A DNA stretch of 23,126 bases from IMG/VR virus record IMGVR_UViG_3300010392_001041, positions 1 through 23,126 of that record; one strand, given 5' to 3'. Below are positions 1,004-17,330 of this stretch, in pieces. Both the position numbers and the translations under genes were made by a program. The stretch's first letter is position 1. Every line of letters begins with the position of its first letter. Under the pieces are notes generated by a model. That model did not search any database and was not told the DNA's origin. It was given only the letters and a program-made list of their open reading frames with translations. Origin of the DNA: a virus.

Positions 1004-2110
1004 TTAAAACGGAATATCATCTTCCGGCATTTCCGATAAGGCATCATAGAACGATAATAGTTGCGGATCCGAAAATTCTACCAGCGGGATCTTTAACTGT
1101 TTCTTATCGTAATTTTTGCGGGTGATGAGTTTGTTAAGCATTGATATTTTATCCTTAGAGCTCGCGCCCTCAAAATCAGCGCGGGCAACGTCGGCGGCGT
1201 CCGGATCGCCGGCCTCGGCCGCGGCGGCAGCCTCTTGATAGTCGGCGTCCTCTATATCATCTTCCTGGCCCCCACCATTAGGCAGGGCGGCGGGCTCGAT
1301 CTCCGGATCGCCGGCGGTGATTTGCGGCGCGGGCGCGGCGGATCCTGGCGCCGGCAGGGATCCCATAGGGGCCCCGCCAGGCGGCAATCCAAATATTTGG
1401 CCCTGGGCGCTTATAGCGGCCTGGGTGAGTAGTAGCTTGATTTGTGGATCCTCATAATCCGGTTTCAAAACCACGCGGACCACTACAAACGGTTTTTTTA
1501 ATTCATCCGGAGAATAAAAGGCTTTAAGGCCTAACAGATCGCGTTTAACGCGGGCCTGGGCGCCGGATTCGCAAAGCTGGTCTTTAAATTTCCGGCGGCG
1601 CCTAACCTCTTTGCGGGATTTGTCCTCGATATATTCAAGGCGCTGCGCCTCGCTTAGATTATTCGGCCAGGTGTTTTGCCCCTTATCCTTGCACCACTTT
1701 TTCATTTTATCCTGGTACATTTCTAAAACTTCTTCCTCGATAACCTCAAAATCCATGCCGTAAGTTTTGATACACATAACGACGGATCCATCGGCTTTCC
1801 GGATAAACCCGCCGGCCTGGTAGCTGATATATTGACGGTCGGATCCGTTATCGGTCCGCATGGTCTTAATCATTTCGATGCCGGCCAGGTTAGATAGCTT
1901 TTCGAGGCCCTGTTTGTGGATTATCATCTTACCCTTATCGTGCGGGTAAACATCGCCTTGTTTCGGATCCGGCGATAGCTCTAATTGCTCGACCGTAACC
2001 GCATGAAGCGGCGTAAGGCCCTCGGTGGTGATTGCCGGCGTAAGGATATTGCATTTATCCTTTTTCGCCTGGGCGAGTGCGACGGTTAATTGTTGTTTGG
2101 CGTCTACCAT
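1004..2110 (-). CDS. Recombination-associated phage protein with SSB-like C-terminal tip (DDIPF)
   Basis: A 368-residue protein starting at the ATG of MVDAKQQL (2110-2108), chosen because AAAAAAGGAG sits just upstream; a longer frame to 2269 would overlap the preceding gene fully. Residues about 50-250 form a conserved-looking globular part (segment IIHKQGLEKLSNLAGIE, then a charged EVRRRRKFK helix and a KPFVVVRVV strand). A Pro/Gly/Ala/Gln linker follows, then an acidic stretch, then a small C-terminal helical part. The last residues are EMPEDDIPF, almost identical to the acidic tip of bacterial SSB, which recruits exonuclease I, RecO and other repair proteins. I do not recognise the main domain. 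With the SbcD-like neighbour, an ssDNA-binding or strand-annealing role is a reasonable inference, not a demonstrated one. Confidence 0.6.
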   Translation of the reverse strand: MVDAKQQLTVALAQAKKDKCNILTPAITTEGLTPLHAVTVEQLELSPDPKQGDVYPHDKGKMIIHKQGLEKLSNLAGIEMIKTMRTDNGSDRQYISYQAGGFIRKADGSVVMCIKTYGMDFEVIEEEVLEMYQDKMKKWCKDKGQNTWPNNLSEAQRLEYIEDKSRKEVRRRRKFKDQLCESGAQARVKRDLLGLKAFYSPDELKKPFVVVRVVLKPDYEDPQIKLLLTQAAISAQGQIFGLPPGGAPMGSLPAPGSAAPAPQITAGDPEIEPAALPNGGGQEDDIEDADYQEAAAAAEAGDPDAADVARADFEGASSKDKISMLNKLITRKNYDKKQLKIPLVEFSDPQLLSFYDALSEMPEDDIPF

Positions 2111-2114
2111 TTTC

Positions 2115-2342
2115 TCAATCTCCTTTTTTCTTTTTCTTAAAACCAGCGGCCAGCGGACAGGTGCCCCAATGCGGCCGGTACACCTTGACCATTTCCCCCT
2201 GGCGATCGCTAAATAATTGGATGCCAGTATATTCTGGCACCATGACCATGTTTTCCGGTTTAGCATCAACCGGCATTTTCTTACCTGTAACCATCGTTAT
2301 AAAGGCTATATCCGCACCGCATTTACATTTTTTAATATTCAT
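2115..2342 (-). CDS. Small Cys-rich phage protein, probable zinc binder
   Basis: A 75-residue protein with an N-terminal CKCGADI pair, then TGKKMPVDAKP, then a late HWGTCPLA motif and a lysine-rich end. The order CxCGxxI - GKxMPVD - HWxTCPxA is common in small phage proteins of unknown function. The Cys/Cys/His/Cys set would suit one zinc ion. Its ATG overlaps the stop of the gene before it by four bases (ATGA), so translation is coupled. It ends four bases before the DDIPF-tail gene starts. No specific function can be assigned. Confidence 0.7.
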   Translation of the reverse strand: MNIKKCKCGADIAFITMVTGKKMPVDAKPENMVMVPEYTGIQLFSDRQGEMVKVYRPHWGTCPLAAGFKKKKKGD

Positions 2343-2527
2343 ATCTGATAGTCCTCGGTATCCCCATCGTTCATTTTAACCAGCCCCAGGCCGTCGCATT
2401 TCGAGCAGATAACGGCCTTTTCCTTTAGGCTGGATCCATAGCCGGCGCAGTGATCGCACTGCTTAAATCCGTAATTTTCCGGATTGACTTGAATATCCAG
2501 ATTAACGTGTTTTGGTATGTAATCCAT
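2339..2527 (-). CDS. Small DnaJ-type zinc-finger protein
   Basis: A 62-residue protein starting at MDYIPKHV; AGAAAGGGGGG lies just upstream and decides this start over a longer frame reaching 2626. It carries two CxxCxGxG-like repeats, CDHCAGYG and CSKCDGLG, about 17 residues apart. This is the zinc-binding repeat of DnaJ/HSP40 chaperones, also found alone in small phage and repair proteins. There is no J domain. The start overlaps the end of the membrane-peptide gene by 26 bases, and the stop overlaps the next start by 4. The role is unknown; a structural zinc module for protein or nucleic-acid contacts is the likeliest. Confidence 0.65.
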   Translation of the reverse strand: MDYIPKHVNLDIQVNPENYGFKQCDHCAGYGSSLKEKAVICSKCDGLGLVKMNDGDTEDYQI

Positions 2528-2768
2528 ATCCCCCCTTTCTAAATGCCACCATGCTATCGTCCACCAGCTCGTACTCGTCGGATCTCCGCGGCGGATCCTG
2601 TTTGTCCGGATAGTAAAAATCTGCACCGACCCCGCAAATATACTCGCAGTTTTCGGCTACTTGGTCGACGCACTCCTGGCGGGCCTGCAGTTGGCCGGTA
2701 TGGATGCCGGCGCAGTAGGCCACCAGGGCGATAATAAAAAATCCTATGATCCAATAAATGTATTTCAT
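2502..2768 (-). CDS. Small single-pass membrane protein
   Basis: An 88-residue protein with an N-terminal hydrophobic segment (residues about 4-22, IYWIIGFFIIALVAYCAG) followed by a polar part with three Cys residues (positions about 33, 41 and 45). The membrane segment would place the rest outside the cytoplasm, where paired cysteines could form a disulfide. It lies directly after the prepilin-like gene in the same operon, 11 bases downstream, so a joint action at the envelope is possible but unproven. I do not recognise the family. Confidence 0.6.
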   Translation of the reverse strand: MKYIYWIIGFFIIALVAYCAGIHTGQLQARQECVDQVAENCEYICGVGADFYYPDKQDPPRRSDEYELVDDSMVAFRKGGYGLHTKTR

Positions 2769-2779
2769 GCCTTACCCTT

Positions 2780-3340
2780 TCAATTTAGGCCGGTGACTCC
2801 GTATTGATCTTTCCAGGCCTCCCAATCCGTACCATCCCAGGATCGAGGATCGCGCATAGAGTCGGAGAAAAGACCGGCCACGGTTATAGTTTTACGGTTG
2901 CTAAACCGTTTCCAGCTTACAGTAACTTTGATCCGTTTCGCTTTTCCTGGCGTATGCTCTGTGATCGTCCAGCGGACCGTATAGGGCCCATCTTGATAAG
3001 CATAATCGCCGTTTTCAACGTCGATCGGAAACTGATAGCGTACTTCTTCCATTAGATCGCGGGCCAGGTTAAGGGCCTGCGTTTGCATATTGCCGGTGGT
3101 ATTTAATTTGATCGTCATTAAGAGCGCCGAGGTCGCGGTTAAAAGCGTCATGCCCAGGATAACCATAGCGATCATAACCTCGATAATCGTAAAGCCGGCC
3201 TGGGCCCTATTGTCCGCGGCCACGGTTTTTAGCAATATGCGCTCATCTTCCTGCAGTTTGTCTTTAAGATCATCGACCATCTTATCATCGACGGCCTTTC
3301 TGTTTTTGCCGGTAATTAATTCAATTATAAAATTTCGCAC
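2780..3340 (-). CDS. Prepilin-type (type IV pilin/pseudopilin-like) protein
   Basis: The core is the class III signal GFTIIEVMIAMVILG, in which a prepilin peptidase would cut between Gly and Phe and methylate the new N-terminus; the conserved Glu at +5 is present. A hydrophobic helix of about 25 residues and a helix resembling PilV/GspI minor pilins follow, then a beta-rich C-terminal part. I chose the GTG at 3340-3338 because GGGGG lies four bases upstream and the previous gene ends eight bases before it; this gives 186 residues but an unusually long leader of about 48. An ATG at 3280-3278 would shorten the leader to about 29. Its location in a phage early operon is unusual. It may enter the host type IV pilus or type II secretion machinery. 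Confidence 0.8.
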   Translation of the reverse strand: MRNFIIELITGKNRKAVDDKMVDDLKDKLQEDERILLKTVAADNRAQAGFTIIEVMIAMVILGMTLLTATSALLMTIKLNTTGNMQTQALNLARDLMEEVRYQFPIDVENGDYAYQDGPYTVRWTITEHTPGKAKRIKVTVSWKRFSNRKTITVAGLFSDSMRDPRSWDGTDWEAWKDQYGVTGLN

Positions 3341-3348
3341 AATACCCC

Positions 3349-3723
3349 CTATGCGGCCTTTTCGAGATCCGGCCAAAATTCCAGCTGGACAACCTGGGCC
3401 ATGTTGATTTTAACTTTTGGTTTTGGGCGGGCCTTTAGTCGGTTGATCTTTTTTAGGGTGGTATTTGCCTGGGCCATAAAGCGCGGCAGGATCTCGGCCC
3501 TTATTTCGGCGTGTAGATCCCTGGCCCATTGGGGCGCCATAGAATTGTGCGGAGATCCGAAACTTAGAAAGCGGGCCTTAATGCCTCGGCGGGCGCACTC
3601 GATCGCGGCTAATTCTTCCCATTGATGATCGGCCGCGAAGTGGCAAGCGAGCTCGGCCTTTTCTTTCTGGCGCCGGTACCGCTCGCGTAATGTTGCTAAT
3701 TCTTTTTCAAGTTTGGTTTTCAT
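3349..3723 (-). CDS. Hypothetical protein with helical, basic composition
   Basis: A 124-residue protein. The N-terminal 35 residues are a charged helix with coiled-coil character (KLEKELATLRERYRRQKEK). The middle holds a His/Trp-containing segment and the C-terminus is basic (RLKARPKPKVK) before a hydrophobic LEFWPDL end. An AGAGGAT ribosome site precedes the ATG. It lies between a small zinc-ribbon gene and the prepilin-like gene with only a few bases between them. I do not recognise a family. Confidence 0.65.
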   Translation of the reverse strand: MKTKLEKELATLRERYRRQKEKAELACHFAADHQWEELAAIECARRGIKARFLSFGSPHNSMAPQWARDLHAEIRAEILPRFMAQANTTLKKINRLKARPKPKVKINMAQVVQLEFWPDLEKAA

Positions 3724-4877: not shown

Positions 4878-4907
4878 ATTATACACTGCAAAATTTATTT
4901 ATGTCAA
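4878..4907 (-). promoter_or_regulatory. Strong sigma70-type leftward promoter
   Basis: Reading leftward, TTGACA (4907-4902), an 18-base spacer, then TATAAT (4883-4878): both hexamers are perfect consensus. It drives the operon starting at 4839. It should be highly active in the host soon after infection, like lambda PL. Confidence 0.8.
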
Positions 4908-13649: not shown

Positions 13650-14039
13650 ATGATATTGACCACTGATAAAATAGGCGCACTTATTCATGCGGCGATTAGA
13701 AGTTTTAACGAATTGGCCAATCCGGTTACACCTATCGAGGCTTTTGGGGATCTTTCCGACGGCGAAAAGGCCCTTTTTAATTCACAAATGGCCCAAATGG
13801 TTGAAAATATTAAGCTGGATCCCCATGAGTTACATGATAAATGGAAAGTAACCGCCCAGGAAATGATCGACGCCGGCACCATTTCGCAGGATTTAGTTGC
13901 CAATTTAGAAACTTATATGCTACCGTTTAGAGAATTGCCAGTATGGAAGAAAACCGAATACCGGTTACAACTCCAACTGGCCAGAACCCTATTGAGGCAT
14001 AATCGAAATGTCGAAAGGGCAGAAAAACGGCAACGGTAA
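13650..14039 (+). CDS. Hypothetical protein before the small terminase
   Basis: A 129-residue protein from ATG 13650 (AGAGGATGG upstream; the frame upstream of this contains the hairpin and is unlikely). Mostly helical and acidic, with ALIHAAIRSFNELANPVTP, SDGEKALFNSQMAQMVENI and a basic C-terminal helix. It overlaps the next gene by 32 bases. Not recognised; position suggests a link to lysis or packaging. Confidence 0.5.
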   Translation: MILTTDKIGALIHAAIRSFNELANPVTPIEAFGDLSDGEKALFNSQMAQMVENIKLDPHELHDKWKVTAQEMIDAGTISQDLVANLETYMLPFRELPVWKKTEYRLQLQLARTLLRHNRNVERAEKRQR

Positions 14040-14745: not shown

Positions 14746-15108
14746 ATGCTTGAAAATCACTTGAAAATAAATAGGCGTAAGTTTTTGCAGCTGGCCACCC
14801 TGGGCACCCTGGGCCTGGCCCTGGGGATCGAGGCGGTACCAGCTGCAGCGCAAAAGGCGCCGGCAGCGGCCGGCATGAATCCAATTTTTACAGGCGCCCT
14901 GGGTAGGTATGAGGGCGTTTCCATTATTCATAGCCCTGGCGATTGGCTGGACGAGGCGGCCGAGATCGATAGAAAGTTTTTCGAGGGCGATCAATGGAGC
15001 AAAGCGCAGCGCGAACTATTAACCCGCGGATCCACGGCGATCAAGGTCAATCGCACTAAAGCACGATGGATCCCATTTAACAAAATGAACCACCCAGGAG
15101 GGTGGTAG
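14746..15108 (+). CDS. Chimeric ORF: Tat-like signal, capsid-like and portal-like fragments
   Basis: A 120-codon frame. Residues 8-36 look like a twin-arginine signal: INRRKFLQL, a Leu/Gly-rich hydrophobic stretch, then a PAAA cut site. Residues 44-62 (MNPIFTGALGRYEGVSIIH) resemble an internal segment of N4-gp56-type major capsid proteins. Residues 77-103 (KFFEGDQW, then ELLTRGSTA) align with residues 86-113 of this phage's own portal (KFYDGDQW, then ELKDRGQKA). No Shine-Dalgarno site precedes ATG 14746. Its TAG stop is in the same frame as TerL, 33 bases before the TerL start. It may be debris of recombination, or a real fusion protein. Confidence 0.45.
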   Translation: MLENHLKINRRKFLQLATLGTLGLALGIEAVPAAAQKAPAAAGMNPIFTGALGRYEGVSIIHSPGDWLDEAAEIDRKFFEGDQWSKAQRELLTRGSTAIKVNRTKARWIPFNKMNHPGGW

Positions 15109-16637: not shown

Positions 16638-17330
16638 ATGCACAGGCTAAAAACGATTTTCGTAATTTTCTTAATCGTCATGCTGGCAGGATTCGCCCAG
16701 GCCGGCGAGAAACAATTAACTTTTGAATGGCAGCAAGAGGCCGATGATCTTCCGGACCTGGCCAAGTGGGAATTATTTATGTCACTGGATCCCGATATAC
16801 CTTTTGACCAGTGGGCCCTGCAGGGCGATATTGTTTACGATGGTAATCCGGCCAGCTGGTACGATGCCACCTTTACAATCACAGTGCCCGACGGCCAGGA
16901 AACGCCGACCTATTTCAAAATGACGGCGATCGACCATGCCGGCAACGATAGCGATCCATCCGACTTGCAAGAGGGCGCCCCTACCGTTATTGATTTCAAG
17001 CCACCGGCCGCGGTGGCGGACCTGGCCGGCGTATATGCCAACCAGGCTAAAACGGTAACTCTAACCTGGTCAACAGATCCGGCCGATACCGATATAGCCA
17101 AACAGGAAGTATTTAAGGCCTCGGCAGCCGGCGGGCCTTATGCCTCGATCGGTACCGGATCCAGCCCATTTGTGTACCAGCTGGCGCCGTCGGATTCTGG
17201 CAAGTGGATTTATTTTGTGGTGGTCCTAACCGATAACGACGGCAATTTTTCAGCCAACAGCAACGAGGCCGCGGTTAAGTTGTCGATGGGTGTACCGTTT
17301 GGATTGCGCGTGACCGTCCAGGCCCAATAA
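16638..17330 (+). CDS. Secreted protein with fibronectin type III domain
   Basis: A 230-residue protein from ATG 16638, eight bases... after AGGAGG. It begins with a Sec signal peptide (MHRLKT, a hydrophobic core, cut after AQA at residue 22). Residues about 115-215 read as an FnIII domain: PPAAVADLAGV, VTLTWSTDPADTDIAKQEVF, then WIYFVVVLTDNDGNFSANS. Residues 25-110 look like a second, more diverged one. FnIII domains in phages usually sit in tail or capsid proteins without signal peptides; export of one from between TerL and portal is unusual. It may bind glycans or the host surface after export. The signal peptide is strong by eye. Confidence 0.7.
   Translation: MHRLKTIFVIFLIVMLAGFAQAGEKQLTFEWQQEADDLPDLAKWELFMSLDPDIPFDQWALQGDIVYDGNPASWYDATFTITVPDGQETPTYFKMTAIDHAGNDSDPSDLQEGAPTVIDFKPPAAVADLAGVYANQAKTVTLTWSTDPADTDIAKQEVFKASAAGGPYASIGTGSSPFVYQLAPSDSGKWIYFVVVLTDNDGNFSANSNEAAVKLSMGVPFGLRVTVQAQ

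Follow-up and report, generated by a model that had tools for sequence, protein, structure and literature searches.

An accessory early gene of a tailed phage with a P22-type portal may encode a PilV-type decoy minor pilin that alters the pilus of the host; we put the probability of this reading at about 0.5. The gene lies in a virus record of 23,126 bases, the whole of which is called the window here, and its reading frame (3340..2780, minus strand) is intact and encodes 186 residues. Sequence comparisons and a structural model support the assignment of the protein as a phage-encoded minor pilin of the PilV/GspI type.

A prepilin precursor in an early phage operon

The PilV-like prepilin gene (2780..3340, minus strand) comprises 186 codons and a stop, starts with GTG at 3340 and has a homologue in a second phage, G007. 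Its product is a class III (prepilin) precursor, ...NRAQAG^FTIIEVMIAMVILG..., with the sequence VRNFIIELITGKNRKAVDDKMVDDLKDKLQEDERILLKTVAADNRAQAG^FTIIEVMIAMVILGMTLLTATSALL... around the cut, where Gly49 is the -1, Phe50 the +1 and Glu54 the +5 residue. Class III signals have a leader ending in Gly or Ala, a hydrophobic stretch of about 20 to 25 residues and usually Glu at +5 (PMC10191384). The window protein has the leader end, the hydrophobic stretch and the Glu at +5, while its leader carries less positive charge near the membrane than usual. The N_methyl profile PF07963 matched with 32.9 to 35.6 bits (E 2e-10 to 4e-8; cut-off 21.2) and TIGR02532 likewise scored above its cut-off. Thus the prepilin motif named in the original prediction was borne out by both profiles together with the residues at -1 and +5. 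A chance reading frame or motif was ruled out by the profile scores and the homologue, a sequencing artefact by the intact homologue in the second phage with its matching cleavage site. Cleavage at the AG^F site would release a predicted mature pilin of 137 residues beginning with Phe50 (2783..3193, minus strand), which consists of a helix and a four-stranded sheet.

The leader (3194..3340, minus strand) has 49 residues when counted from the GTG at 3340 and 29 from an internal ATG at 3280. GGGGG is located 5 bases upstream of the GTG, and the ATG is without a ribosome-binding site. We favor the GTG, since the residue it encodes is where the homology with a free phage protein starts.

The pilin gene is part of a leftward phage operon facing a rightward operon that encodes replication protein O, a P22-type portal and NlpC/P60. 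The leftward operon is headed by a sigma-70-type promoter-like site, TTGACA-18-TATAAT, which matched at 12 of 12 positions (4878..4907, minus strand). These features confirmed the phage-like nature of the operon that had been proposed. Directly upstream of the pilin gene is a gene for 124 amino acids (3349..3723, minus strand). Directly downstream follows the gene of a small membrane protein, which has a single hydrophobic segment at its N-terminus and a conserved stretch rich in Cys (2502..2768, minus strand). This neighbour, also pointed out originally, was present in five of five phages compared, with or without the pilin, and is thus not tied to it. Partner minor pilins were not seen beside the window pilin, which is surrounded by small phage genes. 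Phages often encode short proteins with a single long helix, so that a virion or host-lysis part might have a pilin-like shape by coincidence. The position of the pilin gene in the leftward early operon and apart from the structural genes, the prepilin signal and the PilV profile match make this exceedingly improbable.

Some further genes of the window deserve mention. Two small zinc-ribbon-like proteins are encoded in the early operon at 2339-2626 and 669-989 on the minus strand (CxxCxGxG type with a weak DnaJ/anti-TRAP match; HTH and zinc ribbon). A conserved PHROG_13782 protein with an odd acidic and proline-rich linker (1004-2116, minus strand) is 64-91% identical in relatives. Between the terminase genes lies an open reading frame of 120 amino acids (14746-15108, plus strand) with a Tat-like signal start (RRKFLQLATLGTLGLALG), which is conserved at 36-58% in related phages. 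Its end resembles the N-terminal region of the P22-type portal protein (score 68, reached by 0 of 2000 shuffles).

The pilin core is of the PilV type

With TIGR02523, the PilV profile with a curated equivalog cut-off of 52.2 bits, the window protein scored 52.6 bits with and 47.6 bits without its leader; the G007 pilin scored 33.4. Cellular homologues were surveyed in 297 genomes from the phylum of the Deltaproteobacteria MAG G037 (its GTDB neighbours, taken as Desulfobacterota). A profile of the two phage pilins matched in 179 of the 297 genomes with a best E of 1.6e-16 over columns 2-112. At the best cellular loci the match was situated between a FimT/GspH-like and a PilW-like gene, which is the usual place of PilV. 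The closest cellular matches were accordingly PilV in FimT-PilV-PilW operons of Desulfobacterota, the only phylum surveyed in depth. Thus the comparison of the 186 residues with pilin families and phage proteins, a check suggested with the original prediction, yielded PilV genes as the closest cellular matches and the G007 homologue.

An alignment of 14 sequences, the two phage pilins and 12 cellular proteins, covered the whole core. The phage pilins retain Phe at +1, Glu at +5, the helix and the YTxxW...V.V.W sheet, and the phage pilin is about 31-34% identical to the aligned Desulfobacterota proteins. A first AlphaFold model, built from two sequences, gave mixed fold matches. The model based on the 14 sequences had a mean pLDDT of 77 and a pTM of 0.55 and showed a helix from 5 to 56, four strands and, with low confidence, a small helix at the C-terminus. 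Its top PDB matches were the pseudopilins EpsI and XcpV of the GspI family, which were weak with E about 0.045-0.1; a search of the viral fold library with the pilin model returned nothing useful. The proposed resemblance to PilV and GspI was therefore supported by the cellular PilV matches, with a TIGR02523 score just over the cut-off (52.6 against 52.2, and below it without the leader) and a minor-pilin-like fold in the model, the structural matches to GspI being weak. As to the fold itself, the helix and the four-stranded sheet were recovered, and the GspI pseudopilins ranked first at an E of only about 0.05.

The window gene lacks the FimT/FimU, PilW and PilX neighbours of a PilV operon. 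Because it lies outside a minor-pilin operon, alone among small phage genes, we class it as PilV-like and not as PilV proper. Its core is complete and conserved and has every helix and strand of a minor pilin, as would be expected if the protein helped the host filament. It might be a working PilV substitute that keeps or retunes the pili or the type II secretion pseudopilus and serves adhesion, spread of progeny or a change of tip identity. Such support or retuning is a serious rival to the decoy; the closest precedent for it is the remodelling of host flagella by a flagellin encoded in a prophage (PMC13418256). Furthermore, pilus dynamics in Vibrio increase when extra minor pilins are present (PMC13249403). 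On the other hand, no partner minor pilins of the PilW or PilX kind were seen, and the protein carries an added tail unlike any cellular PilV in the alignment. We thus consider a helper unlikely, though worth weighing against the decoy.

The leader is a fused phage protein

The leader had been called unusually long. At 11 cellular PilV loci the leader has 4-36 residues even from the most upstream start, compared with 49 (or 29) in the window protein. Very long prepilin leaders are known in Streptococcus sanguinis according to a review (PMC10191384), and length by itself is therefore not new; a literature search on long prepilin leaders found no paper.

What the original prediction had missed is that the leader is, judged by homology, a separate phage protein fused in frame, and a different one in each phage. 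Residues 1-45 are homologous to free small proteins of the phages G004 and G007. Against the free G004 protein, a reading frame of 55 amino acids (52 when counted from an internal ATG), the Smith-Waterman score was 111 with 49% identity, while shuffled sequences scored at most 52 (0 of 20000 reached 111). The free gene for 52 amino acids in G007 scored 94. Upstream of the cleavage site the leaders of the window and G007 pilins are unrelated, as 1518 of 5000 shuffles scored as well. The G007 leader has 94 residues and matches the next gene of G004, which encodes a PHROG_12453 protein of 92 amino acids (E 1.5e-15 for the G007 leader and 3.9e-17 for the free G004 protein). In G007 the free gene for 52 amino acids overlaps the start of the fusion by ATGA, and in G004 the two free genes, for 55 and 92 amino acids, overlap each other. 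The simplest reading of these gene orders would be an arrangement of 55-residue protein, 92-residue protein, pilin and membrane protein, with the pilin being made as the C-terminal half of a fusion with the small gene that happens to lie before it. In the window phage the gene for 92 amino acids would then have gone and the pilin would have been joined to that for 55.

The two leaders are unrelated, and each corresponds to an entire phage protein that also occurs as a free gene. This raises the question whether the fused small protein is the working part. The prepilin would then be an anchor and processing signal, and the host peptidase would free or place the soluble part near the pilus or secretion machinery. 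That G007 retains the other small gene free just upstream fits this idea. Yet the pilin core and tail are conserved beyond the need of a mere anchor, and leaders that differ share no single soluble function; we regard this explanation as improbable. A combination of both functions is somewhat easier to envisage but doubtful as well. The host prepilin peptidase might act as a polyprotein protease, which makes from one frame a cytoplasmic soluble early protein and a membrane-bound PilV decoy with the phage tail, so that the pilus would be attacked or retuned from both sides, with different soluble partners in the two phages. That two unrelated proteins were fused as leaders suggests a tolerance of prepilin peptidase for whole proteins in this position, which phages may exploit.

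A conserved tail and an accessory gene under selection

Both phage pilins end in a common tail of about 27-28 residues, SDxMRDPRSWDGTDWEAWKxxxGVTGLN, which is acidic and rich in tryptophan and is absent from the 12 aligned cellular PilVs. In the window the tail reads SDSMRDPRSWDGTDWEAWKDQYGVTGLN (2783..2866, minus strand) and is 86% identical in G007. With 24 of 28 residues shared and a dN of 0.09 it is the best conserved part between the two pilins; a phage-specific tail as the most conserved part had likewise escaped the original prediction. A search of the phage collection (50,697 records) yielded no match to the tail.

Related phages were found by scanning with the portal protein, which yielded 72 loci, 14 of them in a close group at 79-100% portal identity. 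When the pilin alone was used in a pattern scan of viral contigs, nothing was found, and scans with the pilin pair, the 92-residue protein, a protein of 421 amino acids and the membrane protein gave the same few contigs only. Among 34 records with related portals the prepilin motif was found only in G004 and G007, both members of the close group; the signal is thus restricted to a close clade. It occurs in G007 (63,192 bp) at 13970 and 21729 and in G004 (65,064 bp) at 16691. Both records look like complete circularly permuted maps because about 90-125 bases are common to the two ends of each.

The homologue in G007 is the protein at 13970, which is intact and shares 67% identity with residues 48-186 of the window protein. 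The homology begins one residue before the Gly at -1, i.e. at the cleavage site, and runs to the last residue. A dN of 0.26 and a dS of 1.21 gave a dN/dS of about 0.21, a rough ratio from a single pair with high dS, which speaks against a decaying passenger gene. The slot in the early operon is occupied in the window phage and in G007 and empty in G002 and G035. G002 is the closest relative covering the site, with about 90% identity in the flanks. There the 124-residue gene is followed by 7 bases and the membrane-protein gene, pilin and leader being cleanly absent. The pilin is cleanly absent in G035 (L099), too, where the same two genes directly adjoin. G004 has both small genes in free form and no PilV-like pilin.

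The patchy presence, at a site otherwise unchanged in G002 and G035, would also be seen with a captured host gene that is useless to the phage and is being lost. But the gene is intact in two phages about 67% identical in it, with dN 0.26 against dS 1.2 and a tail dN of only 0.09, and was maintained through two different gene fusions, so that we hold a useless capture to be very improbable. Random, disrupted host DNA, which the original prediction had named as a possible refutation, is not what was found, as the second phage keeps an intact copy under purifying selection. This intact homologue, the leader fusions, the shared tail and the clean absence in relatives indicate by comparative sequence analysis that the pilin gene is a selected accessory gene and not junk.

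A second prepilin-type gene, unrelated to the PilV-like pilin, was encountered in G007 (L084:1717-2091) and G004 (L085:16676-17050). It encodes 124 amino acids with a GspG/GspH-like start, is 43% identical between the two phages and directly follows a VRR-NUC gene in the same early operon, at a place the window stops short of. In G035 (L099) it is cleanly absent and the flanking genes adjoin. Downstream in the same operon is a pair of genes for an SbcD-like phosphoesterase and an SbcC-like ATPase (L085:12319-16000, L083/L084, L099). A portal search for the host in 395 genomes of the G037 phylum found one distant prophage with 38% identity.

Discussion

Type IV pili are a fibre often used by phages for entry. 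The decoy reading starts from what the sequence offers: a prepilin signal, a PilV-type core, a fused leader, a tail, purifying selection, clean presence or absence and an early promoter-like site. Early in infection the phage would make a prepilin fused to a small soluble protein of its own. The prepilin helix would insert into the inner membrane and the host prepilin peptidase would cut after Gly49. These phages carry no prepilin peptidase gene and therefore processing must be by the host. The mature PilV-like part would then take the seat of PilV in the minor-pilin complex of the host, and the phage-only acidic, tryptophan-rich tail would make the complex abnormal, by which tip assembly is poisoned or pilus dynamics or tip identity are changed. 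As a result fewer pilus-using phages may superinfect, or the phage may avoid losing its own progeny to the cell already infected.

Cutting, entry into the pilus and the effect on infection are steps we infer on the basis of published properties of the system. Prepilin peptidase acts alone on prepilins and needs no other pilus part (PMC10191384). When any one of PilV, PilW, PilX and PilY1 is lost, the remaining three do not enter the pilus (PMC5979040), and the ratio of minor to major pilins sets pilus dynamics (PMC13249403). Phages are known to modulate type IV pili for superinfection exclusion by other means, using small proteins (PMC11656802, PMC11436027).

Several points weigh against the decoy. 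The phage homologues found number just two, the gene is missing from the closest relatives, and none of the fold matches of the model reaches significance (best E 0.045). Cutting could be impaired by the fusion junction and the long leader, and the window leader has less positive charge near the membrane than usual. Superinfection exclusion matters most in the lysogen. The near-complete relatives yielded no integrase or resolvase, so the gene content lends a lysogen no support; an effect during the lytic cycle is therefore more likely than exclusion in a lysogen.

The original prediction had spoken of a new strategy. Phage-coded pilin-like proteins are already in databases and phage control of pili is known, so that a pilin encoded by a phage is in itself not an entirely new idea; the tailed, leader-fused PilV type was not found in our literature searches. 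A literature search for phage-encoded pilins found no paper, nor any on a PilV-type minor pilin of phages that has a conserved tail of its own and is fused, in two phages, to two different small phage proteins exactly at the peptidase site. The 50,697 phage records held no match to the pilin, the PilV consensus, the second pilin or the tail. A match in Acinetobacter phage MD-2021a was discarded as a bacterial chromosome labelled as phage; its records CAKLQH020000003.1 and CAKLQF020000004.1 appear to be bacterial chromosome (bacterioferritin, O-antigen ligase, PpdD).

PHROG_3433 'pilin' and the 'type IV pilus subunit' of Xanthomonas phage PhiXhv-15 are prepilin-type and phage-coded as well, but resemble the window pilin only in the N-terminal helix. 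PHROG_3433 matched it with E 0.0027 over profile positions 8-66 of 127 and not over the whole length, and did not match the G007 pilin. The protein of PhiXhv-15, a Xanthomonas jumbo phage, has 99 amino acids with a PilA-like start and is without PilV sheet, tail and fused leader.

Closer in kind is PilV itself, encoded in FimT/FimU-PilV-PilW-PilX operons (TIGR02523; GspI/PilI seat), with the same Gly at -1 and Glu at +5, long helix and four-stranded sheet and the common core YTxxW..V...K.V.VTVxW. In contrast to PilV, the phage pilin is phage-borne, lacks partner pilins, has a leader of 49 or 94 residues from another phage protein and ends in an extra tail of about 27 residues. If the assignment is true, it would be a small testable tool for the role of the PilV seat at the pilus tip.

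The prophage flagellin FliCP with TldR (PMC13418256) is likewise a phage-supplied subunit of a host surface filament, although of the flagellum and not the type IV pilus, with a guide-RNA repressor alongside and in a temperate phage. Tip, Aqs1, Zip and PfsE/pVII of Pf are also small early or accessory phage genes that alter type IV pili (PMC11656802, PMC11436027), and it is by genomic setting only that the window gene fits this class of superinfection-exclusion proteins. They bind PilB, PilZ-PilB or PilC, i.e. motors or helpers, and are not themselves pilins, whereas the window protein would act as a subunit. Thus a pilin subunit supplied by the phage would, if true, be a different point of attack on the type IV pilus.
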